45,504 nucleotides of DNA. Source: a virus. A program made the position numbers and the translations under genes. The stretch covers positions 1-45,504 of IMG/VR virus record IMGVR_UViG_3300031578_000092. One strand, written 5' to 3'. Under the pieces are notes generated by a model. The model was not told the origin of the DNA. It searched no databases and saw nothing but the letters and a program-made list of their open reading frames with translations. Shown piece after piece: positions 1 to 45,504 of this stretch. Numbering within the stretch: position 1 is the first letter of the stretch; each line of letters opens with the position of its first letter.

Positions 1-121
1 TGTCCTTCCCCTTTAATCCCTCAGTCAATACCTGGGCGATTCTGACGCCGGTCATACCGGGTGCAGTGGATAATTCAAGACACCGATCTTCCAGGTGGTA
101 TTTTTCGATCTTGGTGGCCAT
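1..121 (-). CDS. Terminase small subunit, left copy, truncated by window edge
   Basis: First 40 codons of a minus-strand gene whose ATG lies at 121-119; the rest runs off the left edge. The residues match the N-terminus of the complete gene at 41537-42106 with only two visible differences (an Ala to Thr and a Glu to Lys change). The product is the probable DNA-recognition subunit of the packaging motor, with a helix-turn-helix that begins in this part. It belongs to a phage unit that extends left of the window, which means terS occurs in two non-identical copies. Confidence 0.75.
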   Translation of the reverse strand, partial: MATKIEKYHLEDRCLELSTAPGMTGVRIAQVLTEGLKGKD

Positions 122-145
122 ATTTTTGATAGATATTTTTTACGG

Positions 146-151
146 ACTATA
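146..151 (-). promoter_or_regulatory. Candidate extended -10 promoter for terS/late operon (left copy)
   Basis: On the minus strand the bases read TGGTATAGT, a TATAGT -10 box preceded by the TGn extension, about 25 bases upstream of the terS ATG. No good -35 box lies 16-18 bases further upstream. Both terS copies keep it (right copy at 42132-42137). A weak -35 with two 16-bp direct repeats just upstream suggests an activated promoter. The start of transcription has not been shown. Confidence 0.4.
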
Positions 152-180
152 CCACGGGTTTTTTGAGAAAATTTTCAGGC

Positions 181-223
181 GGACAAAATAGGACAAGGTC
201 CTTAAGGGGACAAATTAGGACAA
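181..223. repeat. Two 16-bp direct repeats upstream of terS (left copy)
   Basis: The plus strand reads GGACAAAATAGGACAA (181-196), an 11-base spacer with a CCTTAAGG core, then GGACAAATTAGGACAA (208-223). Each unit holds GGACAA twice. The right copy at 42167-42209 keeps both units exactly and changes only the spacer by one base. They sit about 30-75 bases upstream of the candidate late -10 box, so they may bind a late activator; they could instead be a packaging (pac) or TerS site. Confidence 0.6.
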
Positions 224-313
224 TATAGGATAGTAAAAAAAGCTTGACAGGATATTTGCCGGCCCTGATACCTCGAAGCATCCGAGCCGGTAGGGGTAAT
301 TAAGAACGATAAA

Positions 314-529
314 TCAATTACTGGAAGATGAAATATCGGGTGTCTTGTTTAGGGCGACCTTGCGGGACCACTCTTCAAGAAGCGTGATATTACTGACCCA
401 GCGCCGGCGCCCCCCTTGCTTGGAAGCAGGAAGACCAGCATTATATACTAAATCGTAAAAAACACTCTTCCCCACATTAAGATGCCTGCAAATACTATCG
501 CGCCCAATCAAGACTTTACATTCTTCCAT
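314..529 (-). CDS. Small winged-helix/AlpA-like DNA-binding protein (left copy)
   Basis: 71-residue basic protein. A helix-turn-helix (RDSICRHLNVGKSVFYDLV, about residues 9-27) is followed by a GGRRRW wing and a short helix, the build of MerR/AlpA/excisionase-type domains and of lambda Nu1-type terminase small subunits. I chose the ATG at 529: the GGGGGA ribosome site lies about 8 bases upstream, and the right copy cannot extend much further. The frame stays open upstream in this copy but only across a poly-A tract. It lies between the HNH gene and the repeat-bearing terS promoter, so a late activator or packaging accessory role is reasonable but inferred. Confidence 0.75.
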   Translation of the reverse strand: MEECKVLIGRDSICRHLNVGKSVFYDLVYNAGLPASKQGGRRRWVSNITLLEEWSRKVALNKTPDISSSSN

Positions 530-565
530 CACCGATATCCCCCGAGTTATAATTTTTTTTTGCAT

Positions 566-599
566 CGTAGAAAATTTTTGCGCCGAAAAATTTTCTACG
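566..599. repeat. Perfect 14-bp inverted repeat, AT-rich
   Basis: Arms CGTAGAAAATTTTT (566-579) and AAAAATTTTCTACG (586-599) flank a 6-base GCGCCG loop. It lies between the HNH gene and the HTH gene. No U-run follows it in the leftward transcript, so it is a poor intrinsic terminator; an operator or RNA-processing hairpin is possible. In the right copy (42554-42587) the left arm is intact but the right arm is degraded. Confidence 0.6.
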
Positions 600-688
600 A
601 CTTTGGAATTTAAAAATTTCGGCTGCTCTCCGATACGTTAGGGTAAATACGGAGTCCCAAATAACCGGCGGCGACCACCATGGGGGCA

Positions 689-934
689 TCAACCTCTCAA
701 AATCGATCTCAGGCGGGCCTCGGCCCGGAGATGACACCTGGCGCACAGGGCCACGAGCCTGGCACCGGGATTGCCCAGATCACGATCCGGATGATGGACA
801 GTCAAACAGGAGCCCATGGTTTTGTCGGCCATATGCCCGATCCCGCAACTGGAGCATCGCCACGCGGCCGCTGCCTTCACGTACCAGGCGATCTGATCCC
901 AACCAGCCCCGTATTTAGCTCTATCCATCGGCAT
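689..934 (-). CDS. Small HNH-type zinc protein (left copy)
   Basis: 81-residue protein with a CSSC knuckle near residue 28, a central VHHPDRD motif (about 46-52), then N-P-G-A-R-L-V-A-L-CARCH. The paired CxxC plus HH...N...H arrangement is that of compact HNH endonucleases, in which His and Asn positions bind the catalytic metal and the four Cys hold a structural zinc. Next to terminase genes, HNH proteins often assist packaging or end cleavage. Here it lies one gene further upstream, between the origin and the HTH gene. The right copy (42676-42921) is intact and mostly identical. The start is the first ATG; a second ATG lies two codons in. Confidence 0.75.
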   Translation of the reverse strand: MPMDRAKYGAGWDQIAWYVKAAAAWRCSSCGIGHMADKTMGSCLTVHHPDRDLGNPGARLVALCARCHLRAEARLRSILRG

Positions 935-1444
935 ATCGAACGCCTGTCATCGCCTCTAACCGCCTCTAATCCAACCCGTAAAAAGGCCATTTAGTTTACA
1001 TAATGGATATTATCATGCATTTGTTTTTCTCGACATAACGCAAATCCGGAGTAATCCAGAGAGATCCGACGCTGGTCCTGGACCGGAATGAACCAATTAT
1101 GGTCAAATGCCAGAAACCCTTAATCCCAGGCCACCGGCCTTAATCACCCAAAACCGCCGGTAACCGGGATACGGCTTATTCGCCAAACAAGCAAAACACA
1201 GTAAACAGCCGAATATCCCCTAAAATCGCCATAAATCAAAGAACATACCAACCGCCCCAATTCTACCGGTCCCCCTCCGGTTTATTTAAGTTTACCGGCC
1301 AGGTACTGAAAGTGTCTTTCTCTTCCCGCTGCATTGCATCGGTTTTGTCCTGGGCTCCAGCAGCCCCTTTATGCGTCCCACCCTATTCTATGCGATTTTA
1401 CCTTCTCTGGCCGTATTTCTTGAACTTACAGTTTTACTTACTTC

Positions 1445-1611
1445 GAAAGCAAAGCGAAAGTAAGGCGAAACTTACTACCTGTAAATACTACTGTAAGTCC
1501 TTTAGTTACTTTCACCCTATTTTCATCCTGTATAGACAGGGTGAAACTTACTACCTGTAAGTTACCCTGTAAAAAACGGTTTTACTTTCGCCTTACTTTC
1601 GCTTTGCTTTC
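1445..1611. repeat. 26-bp inverted repeat pair in origin region (left copy)
   Basis: The arms at 1445-1470 and 1586-1611 are exact reverse complements over 26 bases. Each contains GAAAGTAAGGCGAAA or its complement. In the right copy both arms carry the matching pair of changes (T to A and C to T in one, the complements in the other), so pairing is kept at those positions, while another part of the arm has lost pairing. Between the arms lie two copies of GAAACTTACTACCTGTAA, 77 bases apart. Confidence 0.7.
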
Positions 1612-1671
1612 ACCCTATACATGATGTAACCACTTAAAAAAACAATATGCTATACTGTAAGTATTACTGAA

Positions 1672-1792
1672 GGTGAAAGTAAAGAAAGCAATTTGACAAT
1701 ATATCGCGCAGGAAAAAAGTTAAATAAAGCAAAGAAAAGAGAGAGGAGAGAGTAGAAAAGAATAGGGGAAATTTGCTTTCTTTACTTTCACC
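1672..1792. repeat. Origin core: 20-bp inverted iterons flanking an AT/purine-rich spacer (left copy)
   Basis: GGTGAAAGTAAAGAAAGCAA at 1672-1691 is repeated inverted at 1773-1792. The 81-base spacer contains TATATCGCGCA, an AT-rich run with AAATAAAG, and a long purine tract. The whole block is almost unchanged in the right copy (43652-43772; two differences in the spacer, arms extended to 23 bp there), although the flanks have diverged strongly. This conservation marks it as the likely melting or initiator-binding core. Confidence 0.65.
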
Positions 1793-1895
1793 GTCTCTTT
1801 TTTGCGACCCTCGTACACCAATAAAGTGGACATTTTTATAAATCTGAGGGGGGCGCCGGGAAAATCCCAAAAAAAACAAAAAAATAAAGCTGTTT

Positions 1896-3731
1896 TTATT
1901 CTTCATTGCTCTCAAACTCACTTACCGCTCCTATTCCCATGAAATGGATTCGCCGGTTCTTTGCGAAGGGCTTTCGTTCTACATTCGGAAAATTCATTAA
2001 TATCTGTTCTGCGAATCTATTCCTGGCTATTTTGCGGTATTGACCTTCCTCACACCATTTACAATAAATTCTATGTAAATCATTGACCTCGATCTTCAGT
2101 TTCCGGCCCTGGACGCATTTCTCCTCCACAAACTGCAATAAAGGATGTAACGACATCATAAAATCCTGTTTGTCTTTCTTCACAGCACCGCTTTCGATGA
2201 ACCCATTGTTTTTGAGTAATTTTTCCAGACCCAACAAAGCCCAGGTGAAAACTCCATCCCGCTCCGGTAATAGTTTTTGTTTTAAATCCGGATCTTTGGT
2301 CTCGTCGGTGAATCTCTGATTAAATCTCAATATCAAAAGACGCCGCTCCAGACCATAGCTCCTGTCCGGAATGACCGGCGTTTCTTGCATGGACAATATC
2401 ATCTTGACATAGGGTTTGAACTGGAACTTATGCCCGTGTTTTCGCTCTGCCGTGAGCCATTCGCCACTCACAATCGTTTTCAAATGCTCGGTGGCCACCG
2501 GGTCGCGGTGCGAGGTCTCAGTGGCCACATTGATCAATTTGTTTTGTAAAAAATACAGGCTGAACTTCGGATCGCTTAGGTCTCGCATGGTAAGGGATGA
2601 GCTGTTTTCAGATCCCACTATCTCGTTTAACATGGTAAGTGCCGTGCCTTTTCCATTTCCACCAGACCCGATCATAAACAGCATCTTTTCAAATCGACAA
2701 TCAGTCATGAGACAATAACCAAAAAACTGCTGTAATAGATCTATCTTATCCTGCTCACCCGGGAAGATTTCATCCAGGAATTGAAACCACCTCTTACACT
2801 TCTCCAAATGCTTTATGTTGAAATCACAGGGCACTTGGGCCCGGCTGCCCAACAAAGGATCGTGCGGGATCAACTTCATGCCGTTTTTTATATCGATCAT
2901 CCCGTTTATACAGTTGATATATCCTGCGACGTCCGGCCACTCCTTTGGTTCACGGTTGACCAGTCCGCGCAGGACCTTAATACTGCCATCGATCATATTA
3001 GGATGGATGTTCTCTTTCATAGCCTGTACACAAACCTGGTTTAACACAAACTCGGATATCTCCTGCCACAGACCGTCTTTAAATATCCAGAATGCGCCGG
3101 CGGTGTGACATAAATTTTTAAAATAATTGACATAGTATTTTGCCATCCTCACCGGGACAAACAAGAATTTACCCGTTGATTTACTTTTAATGTAGAATTC
3201 CATCGGGTCAATATCGCGAGGAAGGGGGACGCCGGGCGTACCGGCGGTAAAGGCTGAGGTTGGCTCCACGCTGAGGTCCTTCAGGATTCCGGTGCCGCCT
3301 TCGCGGTCTTTCGGCTTGTAGTCTGGATCGTACTTAGTGAAAAATTCGGGGTGTTTCGCTTCTCCGGATATTTTTTGCCGGGCATCCTTCCATTTGTAGT
3401 TGCAGCTATCATGAAAGCATTGGTATGTAATAAGGCCGCTGGCATCCTGGACAATGGCGGATTCGTTTTGCGAGTGTGAAGGATCGAACAGGCATTGTTT
3501 TAATTTATAGATCTTGCGGCTGCCTGCCATTTTTAGGTTGTACACAATGCCGTAATGATCCAGATATTTATCTACCTGCCATATACCCCAGTCAGGACCG
3601 GCCTGAGAGCCACGACGTTGCGACTTTTTTTCTTTTTTGGAGGATGGTGTAGGACTTTGATCGTCTTTGGGCGCAAGCGCGGCCAGGGCTTGGAGTTTTT
3701 TAATGGGTGTGGGGATTATTTTCTTTTTCAT
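1896..3731 (-). CDS. D5-type SF3 replicative helicase with N-terminal zinc module (left copy)
   Basis: 611 residues. A Lys/Ser-rich N-terminus leads to a Cys/His module (C80, H86, C105, H107, C110) like primase zinc fingers. A D5_N-like region (about 225-300) precedes the SF3 ATPase: Walker A GSGGNGKGT (355-363), Walker B region KLINVATE (398-405), sensor MILSMQETP and an arginine-finger ERRLLILRF (462-470). It should unwind phage DNA as a hexamer. The catalytic primase is not fused; it is encoded two genes upstream as a separate PrimPol. The start overlaps the preceding small gene by 32 bases, and the gene ends next to the candidate origin. A near-identical truncated copy is at 43877-45504. 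Confidence 0.92.
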   Translation of the reverse strand: MKKKIIPTPIKKLQALAALAPKDDQSPTPSSKKEKKSQRRGSQAGPDWGIWQVDKYLDHYGIVYNLKMAGSRKIYKLKQCLFDPSHSQNESAIVQDASGLITYQCFHDSCNYKWKDARQKISGEAKHPEFFTKYDPDYKPKDREGGTGILKDLSVEPTSAFTAGTPGVPLPRDIDPMEFYIKSKSTGKFLFVPVRMAKYYVNYFKNLCHTAGAFWIFKDGLWQEISEFVLNQVCVQAMKENIHPNMIDGSIKVLRGLVNREPKEWPDVAGYINCINGMIDIKNGMKLIPHDPLLGSRAQVPCDFNIKHLEKCKRWFQFLDEIFPGEQDKIDLLQQFFGYCLMTDCRFEKMLFMIGSGGNGKGTALTMLNEIVGSENSSSLTMRDLSDPKFSLYFLQNKLINVATETSHRDPVATEHLKTIVSGEWLTAERKHGHKFQFKPYVKMILSMQETPVIPDRSYGLERRLLILRFNQRFTDETKDPDLKQKLLPERDGVFTWALLGLEKLLKNNGFIESGAVKKDKQDFMMSLHPLLQFVEEKCVQGRKLKIEVNDLHRIYCKWCEEGQYRKIARNRFAEQILMNFPNVERKPFAKNRRIHFMGIGAVSEFESNEE

Positions 3732-8721: not shown

Positions 8722-9819
8722 ATGAGTGTGCACCTTCTCAAAGACGGCCGCTGGATCGTGCAGTACCGGGATCCCTCTCGAGAGGGAAAATACAAGCGGG
8801 AATATTTCGGGAGGGGACTGGAGGCCGAGGCAAAGGCCCGGAAAAGACAGGAGGCGATCGATGTCCGCTCCTACACCAGGCGGACTCCCGCAGGGACATC
8901 GCCATTATTCCAGGAACTCGCCACGGGCTACATAACGGCCAGGCTGGGCGTCAACGAACCGACTACCCTGCGCCGGCTTTCCATCGTGCTCAAGGCCTCC
9001 ATCCTGCCCGAAATAGGCCGGACCGAGGCCCTTTGTCTTACCCATCACCGTATGGATCAATATGTGGCGAAACGCCTTAAAACGGGCGTCAAGCGCACCA
9101 CGGTCCACCGGGAGATCTCGGACATACAGGCCATCCTCAACTGGGCCGTAAAGCGTGAAATCATCAAACGCAATCCTGTGAACGGTTACCAGAGCCCAAA
9201 ACGCGATGACGCCATTATCCAGCCCGTCACTCACCAGGAGATCCGGAGGCTGCTCGACCATACTCCTGATCACGTTACCCGGGCCCTGCTCATCAGCTAT
9301 TACACCGGTCTCCGACCTGGACAGGAATTATTCCGGCTCAAATGGACGGATATCGATTGGGACCAGGAGACCATCCTGATCAGATCTTCGAAGAAGGGGG
9401 GGGCGCTATTCCGGATCGTGCCGCTTCATCCGGATTTCGCGCGGATCCTGAAGGATCTGGATGAAAAAGATGCCAAAAACGAGCATTTTTCATCCGATTA
9501 CATCATTACATTTAACGGCAGGCCGGTGAAAAGCATCCGGACATCCCTGGCACATGCCAAAAAAAAAGCCGGCATCACCCGCCGGCTCACTCCCTATGCC
9601 TTCCGCCACACATTTGCCACCCGGATCCTATCCGGAGGCGGCGACCTCAAATCTACTTCTGAAATCCTCGGCCACAGCCGCACCGACACCACAACCCGGA
9701 TCTACCAGCACACCGACCTAACCGCGCACCGCAACGCCATCGCCAACCTCCCGGCCCTGGACCTGCCTGGGAAAAAAACCGGTAACAAATCAACCAAAGA
9801 TGTACCAAAAAATACATGA
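8722..9819 (+). CDS. int: Tyrosine-family phage integrase
   Basis: 365 residues. An N-terminal AP2-like arm-binding strand region (GRWIVQYRDPSREGKYKR), a core-binding SAM-like domain (about 62-150) and a C-terminal catalytic domain with R198 (TGLRPG), K224/K225, R295 (AFRHTFATR), H318 (LGHS) and nucleophile Y328 (TRIYQH). The usual first His of HxxR is Tyr here (YAFR), a tolerated variant. It ends 38 bases before the tRNA 3' half, the usual arrangement for an integrase using a tRNA attachment site. The C-terminal 20 residues are basic and low in complexity. Confidence 0.95.
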   Translation: MSVHLLKDGRWIVQYRDPSREGKYKREYFGRGLEAEAKARKRQEAIDVRSYTRRTPAGTSPLFQELATGYITARLGVNEPTTLRRLSIVLKASILPEIGRTEALCLTHHRMDQYVAKRLKTGVKRTTVHREISDIQAILNWAVKREIIKRNPVNGYQSPKRDDAIIQPVTHQEIRRLLDHTPDHVTRALLISYYTGLRPGQELFRLKWTDIDWDQETILIRSSKKGGALFRIVPLHPDFARILKDLDEKDAKNEHFSSDYIITFNGRPVKSIRTSLAHAKKKAGITRRLTPYAFRHTFATRILSGGGDLKSTSEILGHSRTDTTTRIYQHTDLTAHRNAIANLPALDLPGKKTGNKSTKDVPKNT

Positions 9820-39537: not shown

Positions 39538-39873
39538 TTATTTTGATGCGCCCTCTTTAAAGGCCGCCTCTTTGTTGTCCTCCTCAAATTTCGTATTCGT
39601 TATGTCGATTTTGTGGATCTGAATTTCCACATTATGGGGCTTCCGGCCTTTTTCGGTATCATCTGTTCGGACACTGGTTACCTTGGCCTTTGCCTTAATT
39701 TCCACCATAGCGCCGGCCTGGATGGTCTGTAGAATTTTTATCTTATCAACCTCCGATTTATTGAACTCCAGCCTTGTCCCGTAAGGATATTGATCGCGGC
39801 CGGAATCTATACCCATGGGTTCTTTCATTTCATTTTGGGTTTTCTTCGGGATCTTTAAATCAACAAGCGCCAT
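39538..39873 (-). CDS. Small virion/capsid-associated protein candidate
   Basis: 111 residues from the ATG at 39873 (AAGGAG seven bases upstream; the longer open frame back to 40059 covers another gene and lacks a ribosome site). MALVDLKIPKKTQNEMKEP is followed by a beta-rich region (GAMVEIKAKAKVTSVRTDD, VEIQIHKIDI). The start resembles small capsid-binding proteins of other phages, but I am not certain. Confidence 0.6.
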   Translation of the reverse strand: MALVDLKIPKKTQNEMKEPMGIDSGRDQYPYGTRLEFNKSEVDKIKILQTIQAGAMVEIKAKAKVTSVRTDDTEKGRKPHNVEIQIHKIDITNTKFEEDNKEAAFKEGASK

Positions 39874-39877
39874 AGTC

Positions 39878-40039
39878 TTACTCCTTGTTTTTATGGTATT
39901 GAACCCGGGCCTCGGCCTGGTCGACTCTCGCCTTATTGGGTTTTCTCGTACCGAACCATTGAAGGATCTTGCTCCCGGTCCGGGCCACAAGCGCCCATTC
40001 GATGCGCTTATGTTTTTCATTGTAGCGTTGTCTGAGCAT
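39878..40039 (-). CDS. 53-residue basic protein following terL
   Basis: A short gene beginning seven bases after the CRISPR-repeat-like sequence (ATG at 40039). The product is strongly basic (RQRYNEKHKRIEWALVARTGSK, then TRKPNKARVD) and probably helical. No strong ribosome site is present; GGGGTG, which forms one arm of the repeat hairpin, lies too far upstream. It may be a nucleic-acid-binding protein. If the hairpin is an RNA element, it could also control this gene. Confidence 0.5.
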   Translation of the reverse strand: MLRQRYNEKHKRIEWALVARTGSKILQWFGTRKPNKARVDQAEARVQYHKNKE

Positions 40040-40045
40040 TTGTTT

Positions 40046-40077
40046 GTTTCAATCCACACCCCTACATAGGGGCGATT
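40046..40077 (-). CRISPR. Solitary type I-C-like CRISPR repeat, candidate RNA anti-CRISPR
   Basis: 32 bases which, read leftward, form an ATCGCCCC arm, a TATGTA loop, then GGGGTG pairing back (six pairs, one G-T), and end in GTGTGGATTGAAAC. The hairpin followed by the TGGATTGAAAC tail is the consensus form of type I-C (Cas5d-processed) repeats, and length 32 fits. No second full repeat, spacer, leader or cas gene lies in the window. It sits between the terL stop (six bases away) and the next small gene, in the sense direction of late transcription. Phages are known to encode solitary repeats that divert Cas proteins. Confidence 0.75.
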
Positions 40078-40083
40078 TAAACC

Positions 40084-41664
40084 CTACATGGCGGTCTGTG
40101 CATCGAGCGGGATATATTGATCCTGTTCCGCCGCAATAATTTCCTGCCGTGTGGGCAGGCGCCATTGATCTGCGAGTTGATGACACAGGACACCAATGCT
40201 GTCCGGGATGTCCTTTTTACGGCCCCGGGGGAAACGGCGGAGCTGGAACTCCGTATCAAACAGCCAATCCGGCTGGTTGGGTCCTTTGACCGGCAGGTGA
40301 ATCGCGCCTTCGCGTGCCCGGCCCTGAAACGGTCGGGCTTTGCTGATCTTATCCCCCCTGGGTAATAGCGACACGATATTGGGAAAAATATTTGTCTCCC
40401 GCATTTTCAGTTTTAAAAATGGCATAATAGCCCGTTGAATATTCTCGGCCTCCAATGTAAAAATCCCGGGTTTATACAAAGCCTGGATCTCCAGGATATT
40501 ATCGATGATCTCCAGGCTGTCCCAGTGACCGAAGCGCACATGCACAATCCAAAGCTCATGATCATAATCCAGCCCCGCAACCACCAGGGCGGTATCGGCC
40601 GCCGTCTCGGCCTCGGAAATAGCAAGATCGCCCGCCGCATACATCTTGAGATATCGAGGCAGTGTTTTATAACGCCCAAACCATTTGAGCTGAAAAAAGG
40701 CGTTTTCATCTTCCGGCGCAGGATCAAGAAGATACTGGCAGGAATAAATATAAAGCCCGACCATCGGATCTTTTTTGATAGCGTCCAGTTTATCCGGGCC
40801 GTATTGGACAGGCCATAACGTCCTGCGTTTTCTGATACCGCTTTCGGGATCAACAATGGTTTCCTCGGCAGGCCGCTTATACACCCTGTAATTACCACTC
40901 CGCTCCATCTCACAATGAAGGTCGCCGTCGTCATATATTGTGCCGCAGATCTGGGCATTCCCGAACGTGGTAAGGATAGAACTCCGGACAATGCCGTATT
41001 GATCTTTGAGCTTTTTGATTTGCTCGGCGGTCGTGGTGTTTTCCGGGACGACCAGGTCATCGAATTTAATTCTTGGGAAATGGGATCCTGTGGGCATGGC
41101 CTCGATCCCGAACGCCGTAAGGGCCGCCTCCTGTCCCATGGTAAAACCGGGCAGGTGGATTTCGTCTGATGACCAAAGCGGGCATTCACTTCGGTTTTCG
41201 GGGTTTTTCCAGACCTTATCGTAAAATACCGCCCGGAAGACGGTATTTGATTTATAATGCGCTTTGATTTCGCGGAGTCGCCGTGCCGCTCTTTGCCGTG
41301 TATCTGAGCCAAGACCGATAGGAACGTCTGGATGTTTGATTGCTTCCTGGATAGTATGACAGATAGAAAATATCTTTGTCTTACAATGGCCGCGAGGCAG
41401 TAAATATAAGGTAAGATGAATGTCTTTCTGGATCTCATGACAAAACTCCCGGTGCGGATCGGCGCATAAATACCAGTAACCCAGGACATATTTTGCAAAA
41501 AAATAAAGATCATGCAGGCAGTAGGCCTGCAAATCCTCAATTAGCTGTTTCTCCCTCTTCGGGTGTAGGGCCTGTGATGCCAGAGACTTCAAGGCGTCCA
41601 ATAATTCCTTGTATTCCGGATCTGGCCTGAATAAGTAACACTCCTGAGGATCGTAAGGATTCAT
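40084..41664 (-). CDS. terL: Terminase large subunit
   Basis: 526 residues from the ATG at 41664 (a GTG four codons earlier is possible). ATPase: Walker A variant LLPRGHCKT (88-96), Walker B RIKFDD (198-203). RNase H-like nuclease: YAAGDLAIS (D346), LEAEN (E405/E407) and KKDIPDS (D485/D488). It pumps DNA into the prohead and cuts it. It overlaps the end of terS by about 130 bases in another frame, so the two are coupled. It is followed after six bases by the CRISPR-repeat-like sequence. Confidence 0.92.
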   Translation of the reverse strand: MNPYDPQECYLFRPDPEYKELLDALKSLASQALHPKREKQLIEDLQAYCLHDLYFFAKYVLGYWYLCADPHREFCHEIQKDIHLTLYLLPRGHCKTKIFSICHTIQEAIKHPDVPIGLGSDTRQRAARRLREIKAHYKSNTVFRAVFYDKVWKNPENRSECPLWSSDEIHLPGFTMGQEAALTAFGIEAMPTGSHFPRIKFDDLVVPENTTTAEQIKKLKDQYGIVRSSILTTFGNAQICGTIYDDGDLHCEMERSGNYRVYKRPAEETIVDPESGIRKRRTLWPVQYGPDKLDAIKKDPMVGLYIYSCQYLLDPAPEDENAFFQLKWFGRYKTLPRYLKMYAAGDLAISEAETAADTALVVAGLDYDHELWIVHVRFGHWDSLEIIDNILEIQALYKPGIFTLEAENIQRAIMPFLKLKMRETNIFPNIVSLLPRGDKISKARPFQGRAREGAIHLPVKGPNQPDWLFDTEFQLRRFPRGRKKDIPDSIGVLCHQLADQWRLPTRQEIIAAEQDQYIPLDAQTAM

Positions 41665-42106
41665 CGTCCATATCACCAGGTGAAGGTTTTTCGGGCGGGG
41701 GTTGGATCCCGGCCAGTTTTAATTTGTCAAGTATGATCCGGACAACGGCCTTTCCGGCCTCCCCCTGCTCAGCACGCGAAAAATTAGCATCGCTGAGTTC
41801 TTTTTTCTCAGGATCAAATTTTTGATTCCGAAAGATCTCAAGAAAAAAGGTTTGAACTTCTTCAACCTGATCGAGATCATTGGGGAGGTGGCCTTTGACA
41901 TATTTTCTGTAGACTTCCCGGGTTTCATCGGCACGCTCTTCCCGAACAGACTTTAGCCACCGGCAGACTGTGGACTGGGTGATGGTGTCTTTTCCCTCTA
42001 ATCCCTCAGTCAATACCTGGGCGATTCTGACGCCGGTCATACCGGGTGCAGCGGATAATTCAAGACACCGGTCTTCCAGGTGGTATTTTTCGATCTTGGT
42101 GGCCAT
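41537..42106 (-). CDS. Terminase small subunit (complete, right copy)
   Basis: 189 residues. The N-terminal domain contains a helix-turn-helix (GVRIAQVLTEGLEGKDTITQ then STVCRWLKSV, about 24-53); a central helical region (residues about 60-110) is suitable for ring formation, and the C-terminus is Pro/Glu-rich and flexible. It should recognise the packaging site and stimulate TerL. The assignment rests on position and HTH. The final 130 bases encode the start of TerL in another frame. A conserved promoter and two 16-bp repeats lie upstream. Confidence 0.78.
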   Translation of the reverse strand: MATKIEKYHLEDRCLELSAAPGMTGVRIAQVLTEGLEGKDTITQSTVCRWLKSVREERADETREVYRKYVKGHLPNDLDQVEEVQTFFLEIFRNQKFDPEKKELSDANFSRAEQGEAGKAVVRIILDKLKLAGIQPPPEKPSPGDMDDESLRSSGVLLIQARSGIQGIIGRLEVSGITGPTPEEGETAN

Positions 42107-42131
42107 AATTTTGATAGATATTTTTTTACGG

Positions 42132-42137
42132 ACTATA
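42132..42137 (-). promoter_or_regulatory. Candidate extended -10 promoter for terS (right copy)
   Basis: TGGTATAGT on the minus strand, identical to the left copy (146-151) although surrounding bases differ. No clear -35 box. Confidence 0.4.
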
Positions 42138-42166
42138 CCACGGGTTTTTTGAGCAAATTTTCACGC

Positions 42167-42209
42167 GGACAAAATAGGACAAGGTTCTTAAGGGGACAAA
42201 TTAGGACAA
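42167..42209. repeat. Two 16-bp direct repeats upstream of terS (right copy)
   Basis: GGACAAAATAGGACAA (42167-42182) and GGACAAATTAGGACAA (42194-42209), unchanged relative to the left copy; the 11-base spacer differs by one base. Confidence 0.6.
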
Positions 42210-42303
42210 TATAGGATAGTAGAAAAAGCTTGACAGGATGTTTTGACGGCCCGGATACCTCGAAGCATCCGAGCCGGTGAGAGGGGTAATTAAGAACGAT
42301 AAA

Positions 42304-42519
42304 TCAATTACTGGAAGATGAAATATCGGGTGCCTTGTTTAGGGCGACCTTGCGGGACCACTCATCAAGGAGTGTCATATTACTTACCCAGCGGCGGCGC
42401 CCCCCCTGCTTTGAAGCAGGAAGACCGGCATTATACACTAAATCGTAAAAAACGCTCTTCCCCACATTAAGATGGCGGCAAATACTATCACGCCCAATCA
42501 AGACTTTACATTCTTCCAT
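42304..42519 (-). CDS. Small winged-helix/AlpA-like DNA-binding protein (right copy)
   Basis: 71 residues, differing from the left copy at about three positions (Ile/Met, Glu/Asp and Thr/Ala). A GTG codon stands directly before the ATG, so the start could be one codon earlier. The helix-turn-helix and GGRRRW wing are unchanged. The strong conservation relative to flanking DNA supports a real gene with a conserved target, possibly the 16-bp repeats just downstream. Confidence 0.75.
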   Translation of the reverse strand: MEECKVLIGRDSICRHLNVGKSVFYDLVYNAGLPASKQGGRRRWVSNMTLLDEWSRKVALNKAPDISSSSN

Positions 42520-42553
42520 CACCGATATCCCCCGAGTTATAATTTTTTTGCAT

Positions 42554-42587
42554 CGTAGAAAATTTTTGCGTCGTAAAATTTTCAGCG
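42554..42587. repeat. Degraded inverted repeat (right copy of 566-599)
   Basis: The left arm CGTAGAAAATTTTT is kept but the other arm is AAAATTTTCAGCG, breaking part of the pairing. The central A/T pairing of about eight bases remains. Confidence 0.45.
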
Positions 42588-42675
42588 ACTTTGGAATTTA
42601 AAAATTCGGCTGCTCTCCGATACGTTAGGGTAAATACGGAGTCCCAAATAACCGCCGGCTACCACCATGGGGGCA

Positions 42676-42921
42676 TCACCCTTTTAAAATAGCCCTCAAG
42701 CGGGCCTCGTCTCGCAGATGGCACCTGGCGCACAGGGCCACGAGCCTGGCGCCGGGATTGCCCGGATCACGGTCGGGGTGATGGACAATCAAACACGAGC
42801 CCGTGGTCCCATCGGTCATATGTCCCATCCCACACTTGGAGCATCGCCACCCGGCCGTTGCCTTCACGTACCAGGCTATTTGATCCCAGCCAGCTCCGTA
42901 TTTGGCTTTATCTATCGGCAT
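42676..42921 (-). CDS. Small HNH-type zinc protein (right copy)
   Basis: 81 residues. CSKC, VHHPDRD and CARCH are all intact, and most changes from the left copy are conservative (for example Arg to Lys near the start, Ala to Gly in WRC context). Both copies being open and conserved indicates selection on the protein. Confidence 0.75.
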   Translation of the reverse strand: MPIDKAKYGAGWDQIAWYVKATAGWRCSKCGMGHMTDGTTGSCLIVHHPDRDPGNPGARLVALCARCHLRDEARLRAILKG

Positions 42922-43421
42922 ATCGACCGCCTGTCATCGCCTGTCATCGCCTCTAATCCAACCCGGAAAAGGGCCATTTAGTTTACATAATGGATATTAT
43001 CATGCATTTGTTTTTCTCGACATAACGCAAATCCGGAGTAATTAAGAGAGATCCACCGTAGGCCCTGGACCGGAATGAGCCAATTATGGTCAAATGCCAG
43101 AAACCGCTAATCCCAGGCCACCGACTTTAATCGCCATAGATCGTCGATAATCAGAAACCGGCCCTTTCATCGAACAAGCAAAATACAGTAAACAGCCGAA
43201 TATCCCCTAAAATCGCCATAAATCAATAAACATACCAACCGCCCCAGTTCTACCGGCCCCCCCGGTTTATTTAAGTTTACCGGCCAGGTGATGGGTGTGT
43301 CTTTCTCTTTCCGCTGCATTGCATCGGTTTTGTCCTGGCCTCCAGGCGGCCCTTTATGCGTCCCACCCTATTCTATGCGATTTTACCTTCTCTACCCGTC
43401 ATCCTTACAGTCATACTTACA

Positions 43422-43594
43422 GGTGAAAGAAAGGTGAAAGAAAGGTGAAACTTACTACCTGTAACTTATACTGTAAATGATCAATTTGCTTTCACCCTAT
43501 TTTCATGCTGTATAGACAGGTGAAACTTACTACCCTGTAAATAATACTGTAACAAACGGTTTTACTTTCACCTTTCTTTCGCTTTGCTTTCACC
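43422..43594. repeat. Phased GGTGAAA iterons and inverted arm (right copy)
   Basis: Three GGTGAAA units with an 11-base period (43422-43450) face an inverted arm at 43561-43594. Direct repeats of GGTGAAACTTACTACC lie at about 43444 and 43519. Some arm positions changed together relative to the left copy. Confidence 0.65.
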
Positions 43595-43651
43595 CTGATT
43601 ATGATATAACCGCCTGAAATCCCACTATGCCATACTGTAAGTTTTACTAAA

Positions 43652-43772
43652 GGTGAAAGTAAAGAAAGCAATTTGACAATATATCGCGCAGGAAAAAAGT
43701 TAAATAAAGCAAAGAAAAGAGAGAGGAGAGAGTAGAAAGGAATAGGGGAAAATTGCTTTCTTTACTTTCACC
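43652..43772. repeat. Origin core with 23-bp inverted iterons (right copy)
   Basis: GGTGAAAGTAAAGAAAGCAA plus TTT (43652-43674) and its exact complement (43750-43772) flank the AT- and purine-rich spacer, which differs from the left copy at only two bases. Confidence 0.65.
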
Positions 43773-43876
43773 CTCCCATTTTGGCACCCCTTGCACATCA
43801 ATAAAGTGGGCATTTTTATGAATCTGAGGGGGGGCGCCGGGAAAACCCCAAAAAAAACAAAAAAATAAAGCTGTTT

Positions 43877-45504
43877 TTATTCTTCATTGCTCTCAAACTC
43901 ACTTACCGCTCCTATTCCCACGAAATGTATTCGCCTGGTCTTTGTCAATGGCTTTCGTTCTATATTCGGAAAATTCATTAATATCTGTTCTGTGAATCTA
44001 TTCCTGGCTAATTTACGATATTGACCTTCCTCGCACCATTTGCAATATATTCTATGTAAATCATTAACCTCGATCTCGAGGGTTCGTCCCAGGACACATT
44101 TCTCATCCACAAACTGCAATAAAGGATGTAAAGACATCATAAAAGCCTGTTTGTCGTTCTGCACAGCACCGCTTTCGCTGAACCCATTGTTTTTGAGTAA
44201 TTTTTCCAAACCCAACAGAGCCCAGGTGAAAACTCCATCACGCTCAGGTAATAGTTTTTGTTTTAAATCTGGATCTTTGGTCTCGTCTGTGAATCTTTGG
44301 TTAAATCTCAATATCAAGAGACGCCGCTCCAGACCATAGCTTCTGTCCGGAATGACCGGCGTTTCTTGCATGGACAATATCATCTTGACATAGGGTTTGA
44401 ACTGGAACTTGTGACCGTGTTTTCTTTCCGCGGTGAGCCATTCGCCACTCACAATCGTTTTTAGATGTTCCGTGGCCACCGGATCCCGGTGCGAGGTCTC
44501 CGTGGACACATTGACCAGTTTGTTTTGCAAAAAATAAAGGCTGAATTTCGGATCGCTTAGGTCTCGCATGGTAAGCGATGATGTGTTTTCAGATCCAACT
44601 ATCTCATTTAGCATAGTAAGGACTGTGCCTTTTCCGTTCCCACCGGATCCGATCATAAACAGCATTTTTTCGAAACGGCAGTCAGTCATGAGACAATAAC
44701 CAAAAAATTGCTGCAATAGATCTATCTTATCCGGTTCATCCGGGAAAATTTCATCAAGAAACTGATACCACCTCTCACAATTATCCAAATGCTTTATGTC
44801 GAAATCACAGGGCACCTGGGTCCGGCTGCCCAATAAAGGATCGTGCGGGATCAACTTCATTCCGTTGTGTATGTCAATCATGCCGTTTATACAGTTGATA
44901 TATCCTGCTATGTCCGGCCACTCCTTTGGTTCACGGTTGACCAGGCCGCGCAGGACCTTAATACTGCCATCGATCATATTAGGATGGACGTTCTCTTTCA
45001 TAGCCTGCACACAGACCTGGTTTAACACAAACTCCGATATCTCCTGCCACAGGCCATCTTTGAATATCCAGAATGCGCCGGCGGTGTGATGCAAGTTTTT
45101 GAAATAATTGACATAGTATTTTGCCATACGCACAGGGACAAATAAAAATTTACCCGTTGATTTACTTTTAATGTAGAATTCCATTGGGTCAATATCCCTG
45201 GGGAGGGGGACGCCGGGCGTACCGGCGGTAAAGGCTGAGGTGGGCTCCACGTTGAGATCCTTCAGGATCCCGGTTCCGGCTTCGCGGTCTTTCGGTTTGT
45301 AGTTTGGATCGTACTTAGTGAAAAATTCGGGGTGTTTCGCTTCACCGGATATCTTTTGCCGGGCGTCCTTCCATTTATAGTTGCAGCTATCATGAAAGCA
45401 TTGGTATGTAATAAGGCCGCTGGCATCCTGGACAATGGCGGATTCGTTTTGCGAGTGTGAAGGATCGAACAGGCATTGTTTTAATTTATAGATCTTGCGG
45501 CTGC
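43877..45504 (-). CDS. SF3 replicative helicase (right copy, truncated by window edge)
   Basis: The frame is open from the stop at 43877 to the window edge; the N-terminal 70 residues lie outside. All helicase motifs match the left copy (Walker A GSGGNGKGT, the Walker B region reading KLVNVSTE, ERRLLILRF), and the Cys/His module (FDPSHSQ, YQCFHDSC) is included. Roughly 30 substitutions occur across the shared C-terminal 457 residues, mostly conservative. An internal GTG near 45250 is not the real start. Confidence 0.9.
   Translation of the reverse strand, partial: SRKIYKLKQCLFDPSHSQNESAIVQDASGLITYQCFHDSCNYKWKDARQKISGEAKHPEFFTKYDPNYKPKDREAGTGILKDLNVEPTSAFTAGTPGVPLPRDIDPMEFYIKSKSTGKFLFVPVRMAKYYVNYFKNLHHTAGAFWIFKDGLWQEISEFVLNQVCVQAMKENVHPNMIDGSIKVLRGLVNREPKEWPDIAGYINCINGMIDIHNGMKLIPHDPLLGSRTQVPCDFDIKHLDNCERWYQFLDEIFPDEPDKIDLLQQFFGYCLMTDCRFEKMLFMIGSGGNGKGTVLTMLNEIVGSENTSSLTMRDLSDPKFSLYFLQNKLVNVSTETSHRDPVATEHLKTIVSGEWLTAERKHGHKFQFKPYVKMILSMQETPVIPDRSYGLERRLLILRFNQRFTDETKDPDLKQKLLPERDGVFTWALLGLEKLLKNNGFSESGAVQNDKQAFMMSLHPLLQFVDEKCVLGRTLEIEVNDLHRIYCKWCEEGQYRKLARNRFTEQILMNFPNIERKPLTKTRRIHFVGIGAVSEFESNEE

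Follow-up and report, generated by a model that had tools for sequence, protein, structure and literature searches.

A solitary type I-C CRISPR repeat in the late operon of a probable temperate phage, a candidate RNA anti-CRISPR

RNA anti-CRISPRs (Racrs), published in 2023, are single CRISPR repeats whose RNA ties up Cas proteins in dead complexes (PMC10651486). In the published cases the host has the same CRISPR subtype in 83%, and the repeats often adjoin acr genes, a neighbourhood that is frequent without being required. RacrIC1, from a Bifidobacterium prophage, is a lone type I-C repeat that lies 11 nt behind acrIC5; it is made on the bicistronic RNA of that gene and inhibits type I-C by itself (PMC10651486).

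We report the analysis of a comparable locus in 45,504 nucleotides of viral DNA (IMG/VR record IMGVR_UViG_3300031578_000092, the whole of which is referred to here as the window). Like RacrIC1, the locus is a single intergenic type I-C repeat with a same-strand gene ahead of it (6-8 nt away here, against 11 nt), with no second repeat and with read-through transcription expected. We describe its class, solitude, orientation and hairpin, the paired change between two alleles at the one site and its presence or absence in sister phages. From the sequence we consider it probable, at roughly 0.62, that this solitary repeat of a temperate phage acts as an RNA anti-CRISPR. RNA decoys of this kind are already known; what is new is the position and the allele change between sister phages.

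The repeat, its fold and its surroundings

The window probably represents a temperate phage, since it encodes a tyrosine integrase (8722-9819) together with a major capsid protein of the N4-gp56 family, a P4-type primase, an internal virion protein and a long minus-strand late operon. No tRNA was found in it as a hint of an attachment site. The ends of the record, 1-3523 and 41986-45504, repeat each other in the same direction at ~90% identity, and over its first 2 kb the record is 99.2% identical to a related contig, L007. Apparently it combines two strains and runs past one full turn of a genome of ~42 kb, which would be why a primase gene stands at both of its ends.

Read directly from the window, the minus strand from 40077 to 40046 is AATCGCCCCTATGTAGGGGTGTGGATTGAAAC. 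The repeat proper is best taken as the 31 nt at 40046..40076 on that strand, ATCGCCCCTATGTAGGGGTGTGGATTGAAAC, running from ATCGCC to GAAAC, although the A at 40077 may belong to it. As RNA it folds into a 7-bp stem (40074-40068 with 40063-40057) that includes one G-U pair and is closed by a 4-nt loop, ATGT. The 5' arm, CGCCCCT, occupies 40068..40074 and the 3' arm, AGGGGTG, 40057..40063, both on the minus strand, and they are followed on the same strand by the crRNA-type 11-nt handle TGGATTGAAAC at 40046..40056. The fold energy is -11.3 kcal/mol, which was equalled in 2 of 200 shuffles. Cas5c/Cas5d cut type I-C repeats at the base of the stem, and the predicted site here is at about 40057/40056.

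The repeat is intergenic and overlaps neither of its neighbours, all of which are on the minus strand. Directly upstream is terL, the gene for the large terminase subunit (40084..41676; assigned by PHROG 38, E 1.6e-54, and by its relatives), and the repeat begins 6-8 nt past the end of this gene, in the sense direction. Directly downstream, 6 nt away, is the start of a 53-aa late ORF, ORF53 (39878..40039), which had no family match in profile searches. The next gene in the late operon is Gp10-like, resembling that of a major coat protein (39538..39873; PF21628 and PHROG 825), and a gene at 41537..42106 is, by position and gene order, probably that of the small terminase, with no family match of its own. 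Between 40060 and 40110 the end of terL, ATGTAGGG, recurs within the hairpin as TATGTAGGGG; this end of the gene could replace the hairpin by pairing with CCCCTA, and a longer fold favours that pairing.

The sequence GTGTGGATTGAAAC occurs once in the 45.5-kb window, even when 2 mismatches are allowed, and a search with the handle at the same tolerance found no second repeat near 40046-40077 or elsewhere in the window. Under an order-1 model, 4e-4 exact copies of the 14-mer and about 1e-13 of the 30-mer are expected, and chance cannot account for the repeat. None of the 54 ORFs of the window matched a Cas family (PADLOC, NCBIfam, PHROGs) and none matched an Acr family, the neighbours of the repeat being terL, ORF53 and the Gp10-like gene. 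The site had no match in Rfam, and a search of phage records with the 32-mer gave none. The sequence, the fold and the PHROG 38 match bear out the preliminary description of a hairpin repeat with a handle, in the sense direction directly after terL, and the single handle match and the absence of Cas families agree with its statement that the repeat is solitary and without a cas gene.

Phages often have hairpins between late genes, and to this extent the element might be a plain mRNA hairpin with a chance likeness to a CRISPR repeat; its handle and stem letters, however, match those of I-C repeats in cas-bearing genomes, and with an expected exact count of about 1e-13 we give this explanation almost no weight. 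An intrinsic terminator was ruled out because no T-run follows the stem. No promoter-like site was found just upstream of the repeat on the minus strand, so that read-through from terL, and hence late expression, is expected.

The site in sister phages

A search with terL gave nine viral relatives. One, L003, is identical, and L007, which comes from another sample and whose terL is 94% identical, has a repeat reading GTCGCCCCCGTGCGGGGGCGTGGATTGAAAC at this very site, with AAACAAATG after it as in the window. The 30-mers of the window and of L007 differ at five positions: the closing pair T-A is C-G in L007, the G-U pair is G-C, and two bases of the loop are changed. All 7 stem pairs are retained and the handle has the same letters, a covariation seen in two alleles only. 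In L004 the repeat is absent through a clean 37-nt gap with AAAT at both borders, and the 53-aa ORF is retained; L005 has neither repeat nor ORF, and the distant relatives (44-67% in terL) have no such repeat behind terL. A look at the same position in related phages, as had been suggested at the outset, thus showed the repeat in L007, where the hairpin is kept through a compensatory change, and none in L004 and L005. The terL of L007 (2314-4659) also contains an in-frame insert of ~254 aa that begins CLIGSTKIL, contains LAGFFDGEGS and ends SKN before a Cys; this insert resembles an intein bearing a homing-endonuclease motif, has no Pfam match and is not present in the terL of the window.

ORF53 occurs in the relatives both with and without the repeat, and in L006/L106 it sits one gene further down. 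Given this displaced homologue, the ORF is an old late gene and the repeat an accessory insert ahead of it. A single cassette of ORF53 and repeat was rejected, since the ORF is present without the repeat in L004 and L006.

The insert must affect the terL-ORF53 junction, because it shifts a likely Shine-Dalgarno sequence, AGGG, from ~5 nt before the ORF53 start, as in L004, to ~40 nt away in the window. This shift, together with the location between two late genes, would suit a processing site at which host Cas5c cuts the late message downstream of terL, ahead of the next gene, and tunes their separate stability or translation. The late operon would then depend on a defence gene of some hosts only, however (the repeat class is in 64 of 395 sampled genomes), and the sisters manage without the repeat; we regard a processing site as improbable.

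From GTGGATTGAAAC onward the window and L007 agree in all of 76 bases, in surroundings of about 91% identity, as might be seen if the repeat and the bases that follow formed a one-repeat mini-array, giving a crRNA against rival phages. Viral mini-arrays that target related viruses are known (PMC11656645). Such mini-arrays are defined by at least one spacer between two repeats, though, and here there is no second repeat; moreover, what would serve as the spacer is the phage's own sequence, the beginning of ORF53, and its counterpart in L004 has mismatches at the first four bases and is not preceded by a TTC-type motif. A viral guide is, in our view, very improbable indeed.

Bacterial arrays and other viral solitary repeats

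Array repeats were compared in 395 genomes sampled from the phylum to which a Desulfovibrio MAG belongs, which may not be the phylum of the phage host. The repeat class of the window is present in 64 of these 395 genomes, and the host may lie outside the sample. The arrays of three of them, G317, G072 and G148, have stem letters and handle as in the phage repeats, but consist of many repeats and spacers, with cas genes where these were checked, whereas the phage repeat is solitary. The array of G317 adjoins cas3, cas5c, cas8c, cas7c and cas4, and that of G148 adjoins cas5c, cas8c and cas7c; the window repeat has the stem layout and handle of both and differs in the loop and one pair. Since these arrays adjoin I-C cas genes, the class is a genuine type I-C one, as had been proposed at the outset.

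The preliminary description took near-identity to the host's own I-C repeat as the supporting result; near-identity to a bacterial I-C array repeat was found for one allele and, among the arrays compared, not for the other. The array repeat that G072 and G317 have in common differs from the L007 allele by one nucleotide, an indel. For the window allele, no array repeat within 3 mismatches was found in the 395 genomes, the closest being about 5 edits away. Published cut-offs for a viral solitary repeat unit (SRU) are an identity of at least 90% and 41.1 bits, its authors' collection holding 17,823 repeats. In blastn-short the L007 allele reaches 54 bits against the G072/G317 repeat, with 27 of 32 positions aligned, which is above 41.1 bits, and the window allele, compared with 26 array repeats, reaches 36 bits at best, which is below. 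The exact 30-mer of the window allele was not found in species genomes; the I-C pattern with a 4-nt loop and T-A closure gave three stretches across all species genomes, none with the loop of the window, and in the class of G314 the T-A-closed pattern was found with 5-nt loops only. An I-C-like array of Phocaeicola has the same loop and wobble as the window over 22 bases. Loops in the arrays are usually of 5 nt, as against 4 nt in both phage alleles; the idea of a shorter loop in phage repeats than in arrays was dropped (7/19 versus 2/15, p = 0.24).

The strongest plasmid match to the integrase, by E-value, is in Nitratidesulfovibrio vulgaris (34%, 7e-38), which hints, and no more, at a host in the Desulfobacterota. 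As a host marker, terL gave only distant matches in the sample of 395 genomes, with no close prophage, and the spacers of the fetched arrays matched the phages over 12-18 nt only, which is at chance level. A lone I-C repeat with a 4-nt loop is found at position 1110 of one Desulfovibrio MAG contig (L048), with no second repeat found nearby within the fetched piece.

Two pattern scans of IMG/VR viral contigs for solitary I-C repeats, in which a stem was demanded, found several in unrelated phages, intergenic ones with intact hairpins among them. Late placement recurs in these, in that four unrelated repeats, with other letters and neighbours than in the window, adjoin late genes: a baseplate hub gene (L012) and a tail sheath gene (L131); head morphogenesis and protease genes (L016), with an opposite-strand ORF across the site; and an endolysin gene (L039), near the end of the fetched piece. 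Further viral I-C solitary repeats adjoin genes for a Holliday junction resolvase, a Lar-like anti-restriction protein or a DNA methyltransferase. Four contigs (L124, L130, L140 and L141) have a conserved I-C-like solitary repeat, GTCGCTCCCCATGTGGGGGGTGTGGATTGAAAC, with a Holliday junction resolvase gene on one side of it and a 185-aa ORF on the other, and two contigs, 3300017989_000161 and 3300029267_003234, share the same two different solitary I-C repeats (L012/L046 and L025/L029).

These comparisons bear on whether the repeat is a passing genetic scar: a repeat that recombination brought in from a host array, that now has no function and that was removed again through deletion at short homologies. 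The absence from L004 and L005, with AAAT on both sides of the 37-nt gap in L004 as in slippage, would be expected of a scar, as would the drift of the window allele from known arrays. Decay should break pairs, however, and all pairs and the handle are kept through 5 changes in 30 nt, as judged from two alleles; intact hairpins in the intergenic solitary repeats of unrelated phages argue the same way, though the search demanded a stem. We think a scar unlikely, if less so than the alternatives weighed above.

Proposed action and relation to described RNA anti-CRISPRs

If the repeat acts as an RNA anti-CRISPR, transcription that runs on from terL would yield an RNA containing the hairpin, which host Cas5c would bind and cut. 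The product would carry the I-C handle and then mRNA, with no spacer and no second repeat to end it, and Cas5c, followed presumably by Cas7, would be titrated into non-productive complexes, so that the host I-C system would be inhibited. Late expression counts against this reading, being poor timing for the defence of incoming DNA, although protection of replicating genomes, or a block on primed adaptation, could still follow; that two sisters do without the repeat, and that the window allele is far from the arrays found, count against it also. A broader proposal is that there is a late-expressed class of Racrs that ride on structural-gene messages, without promoters of their own, and whose hairpin switches at a fixed locus between sisters to follow host I-C repeats; this we advance tentatively and consider doubtful.

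Should the decoy work, sister phages would offer, at one site, a decoy RNA whose hairpin changes under a constant handle, and the tracking of host repeats by phages could be tested with a pair of short natural alleles and a sister that has no repeat. A working decoy would also mean that Racrs can travel in late structural messages, and that searches of early or anti-CRISPR loci alone would miss some of them.

Placement in a structural operon had been put forward as new. In itself it is not, given the viral repeats beside baseplate, head-morphogenesis, tail-sheath and endolysin genes, and its novelty is weakened further by RacrIC1, which shares a transcript with the gene 11 nt ahead of it (PMC10651486). 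As a pattern, the late-gene placement of solitary repeats may be undescribed, since the words 'structural', 'terminase' and 'late' are absent from the main text of the 2023 Racr paper (PMC10651486). RacrIC1 differs in that it follows an anti-CRISPR gene and that its transcription and inhibition have been demonstrated, whereas the repeat of the window, a candidate, follows terL in a late operon. RacrIF1, from a Thiocystis prophage (PMC10651486), is likewise a lone, intergenic repeat mimic in a prophage-type genome; unlike the repeat of the window, it is of type I-F, has a strong promoter of its own and is cut by Cas6f. RacrIF1 gives a Cas6f-Cas7f complex on an RNA without the handle, whereas the repeat described here has its handle, and the cutter in type I-C is Cas5c.
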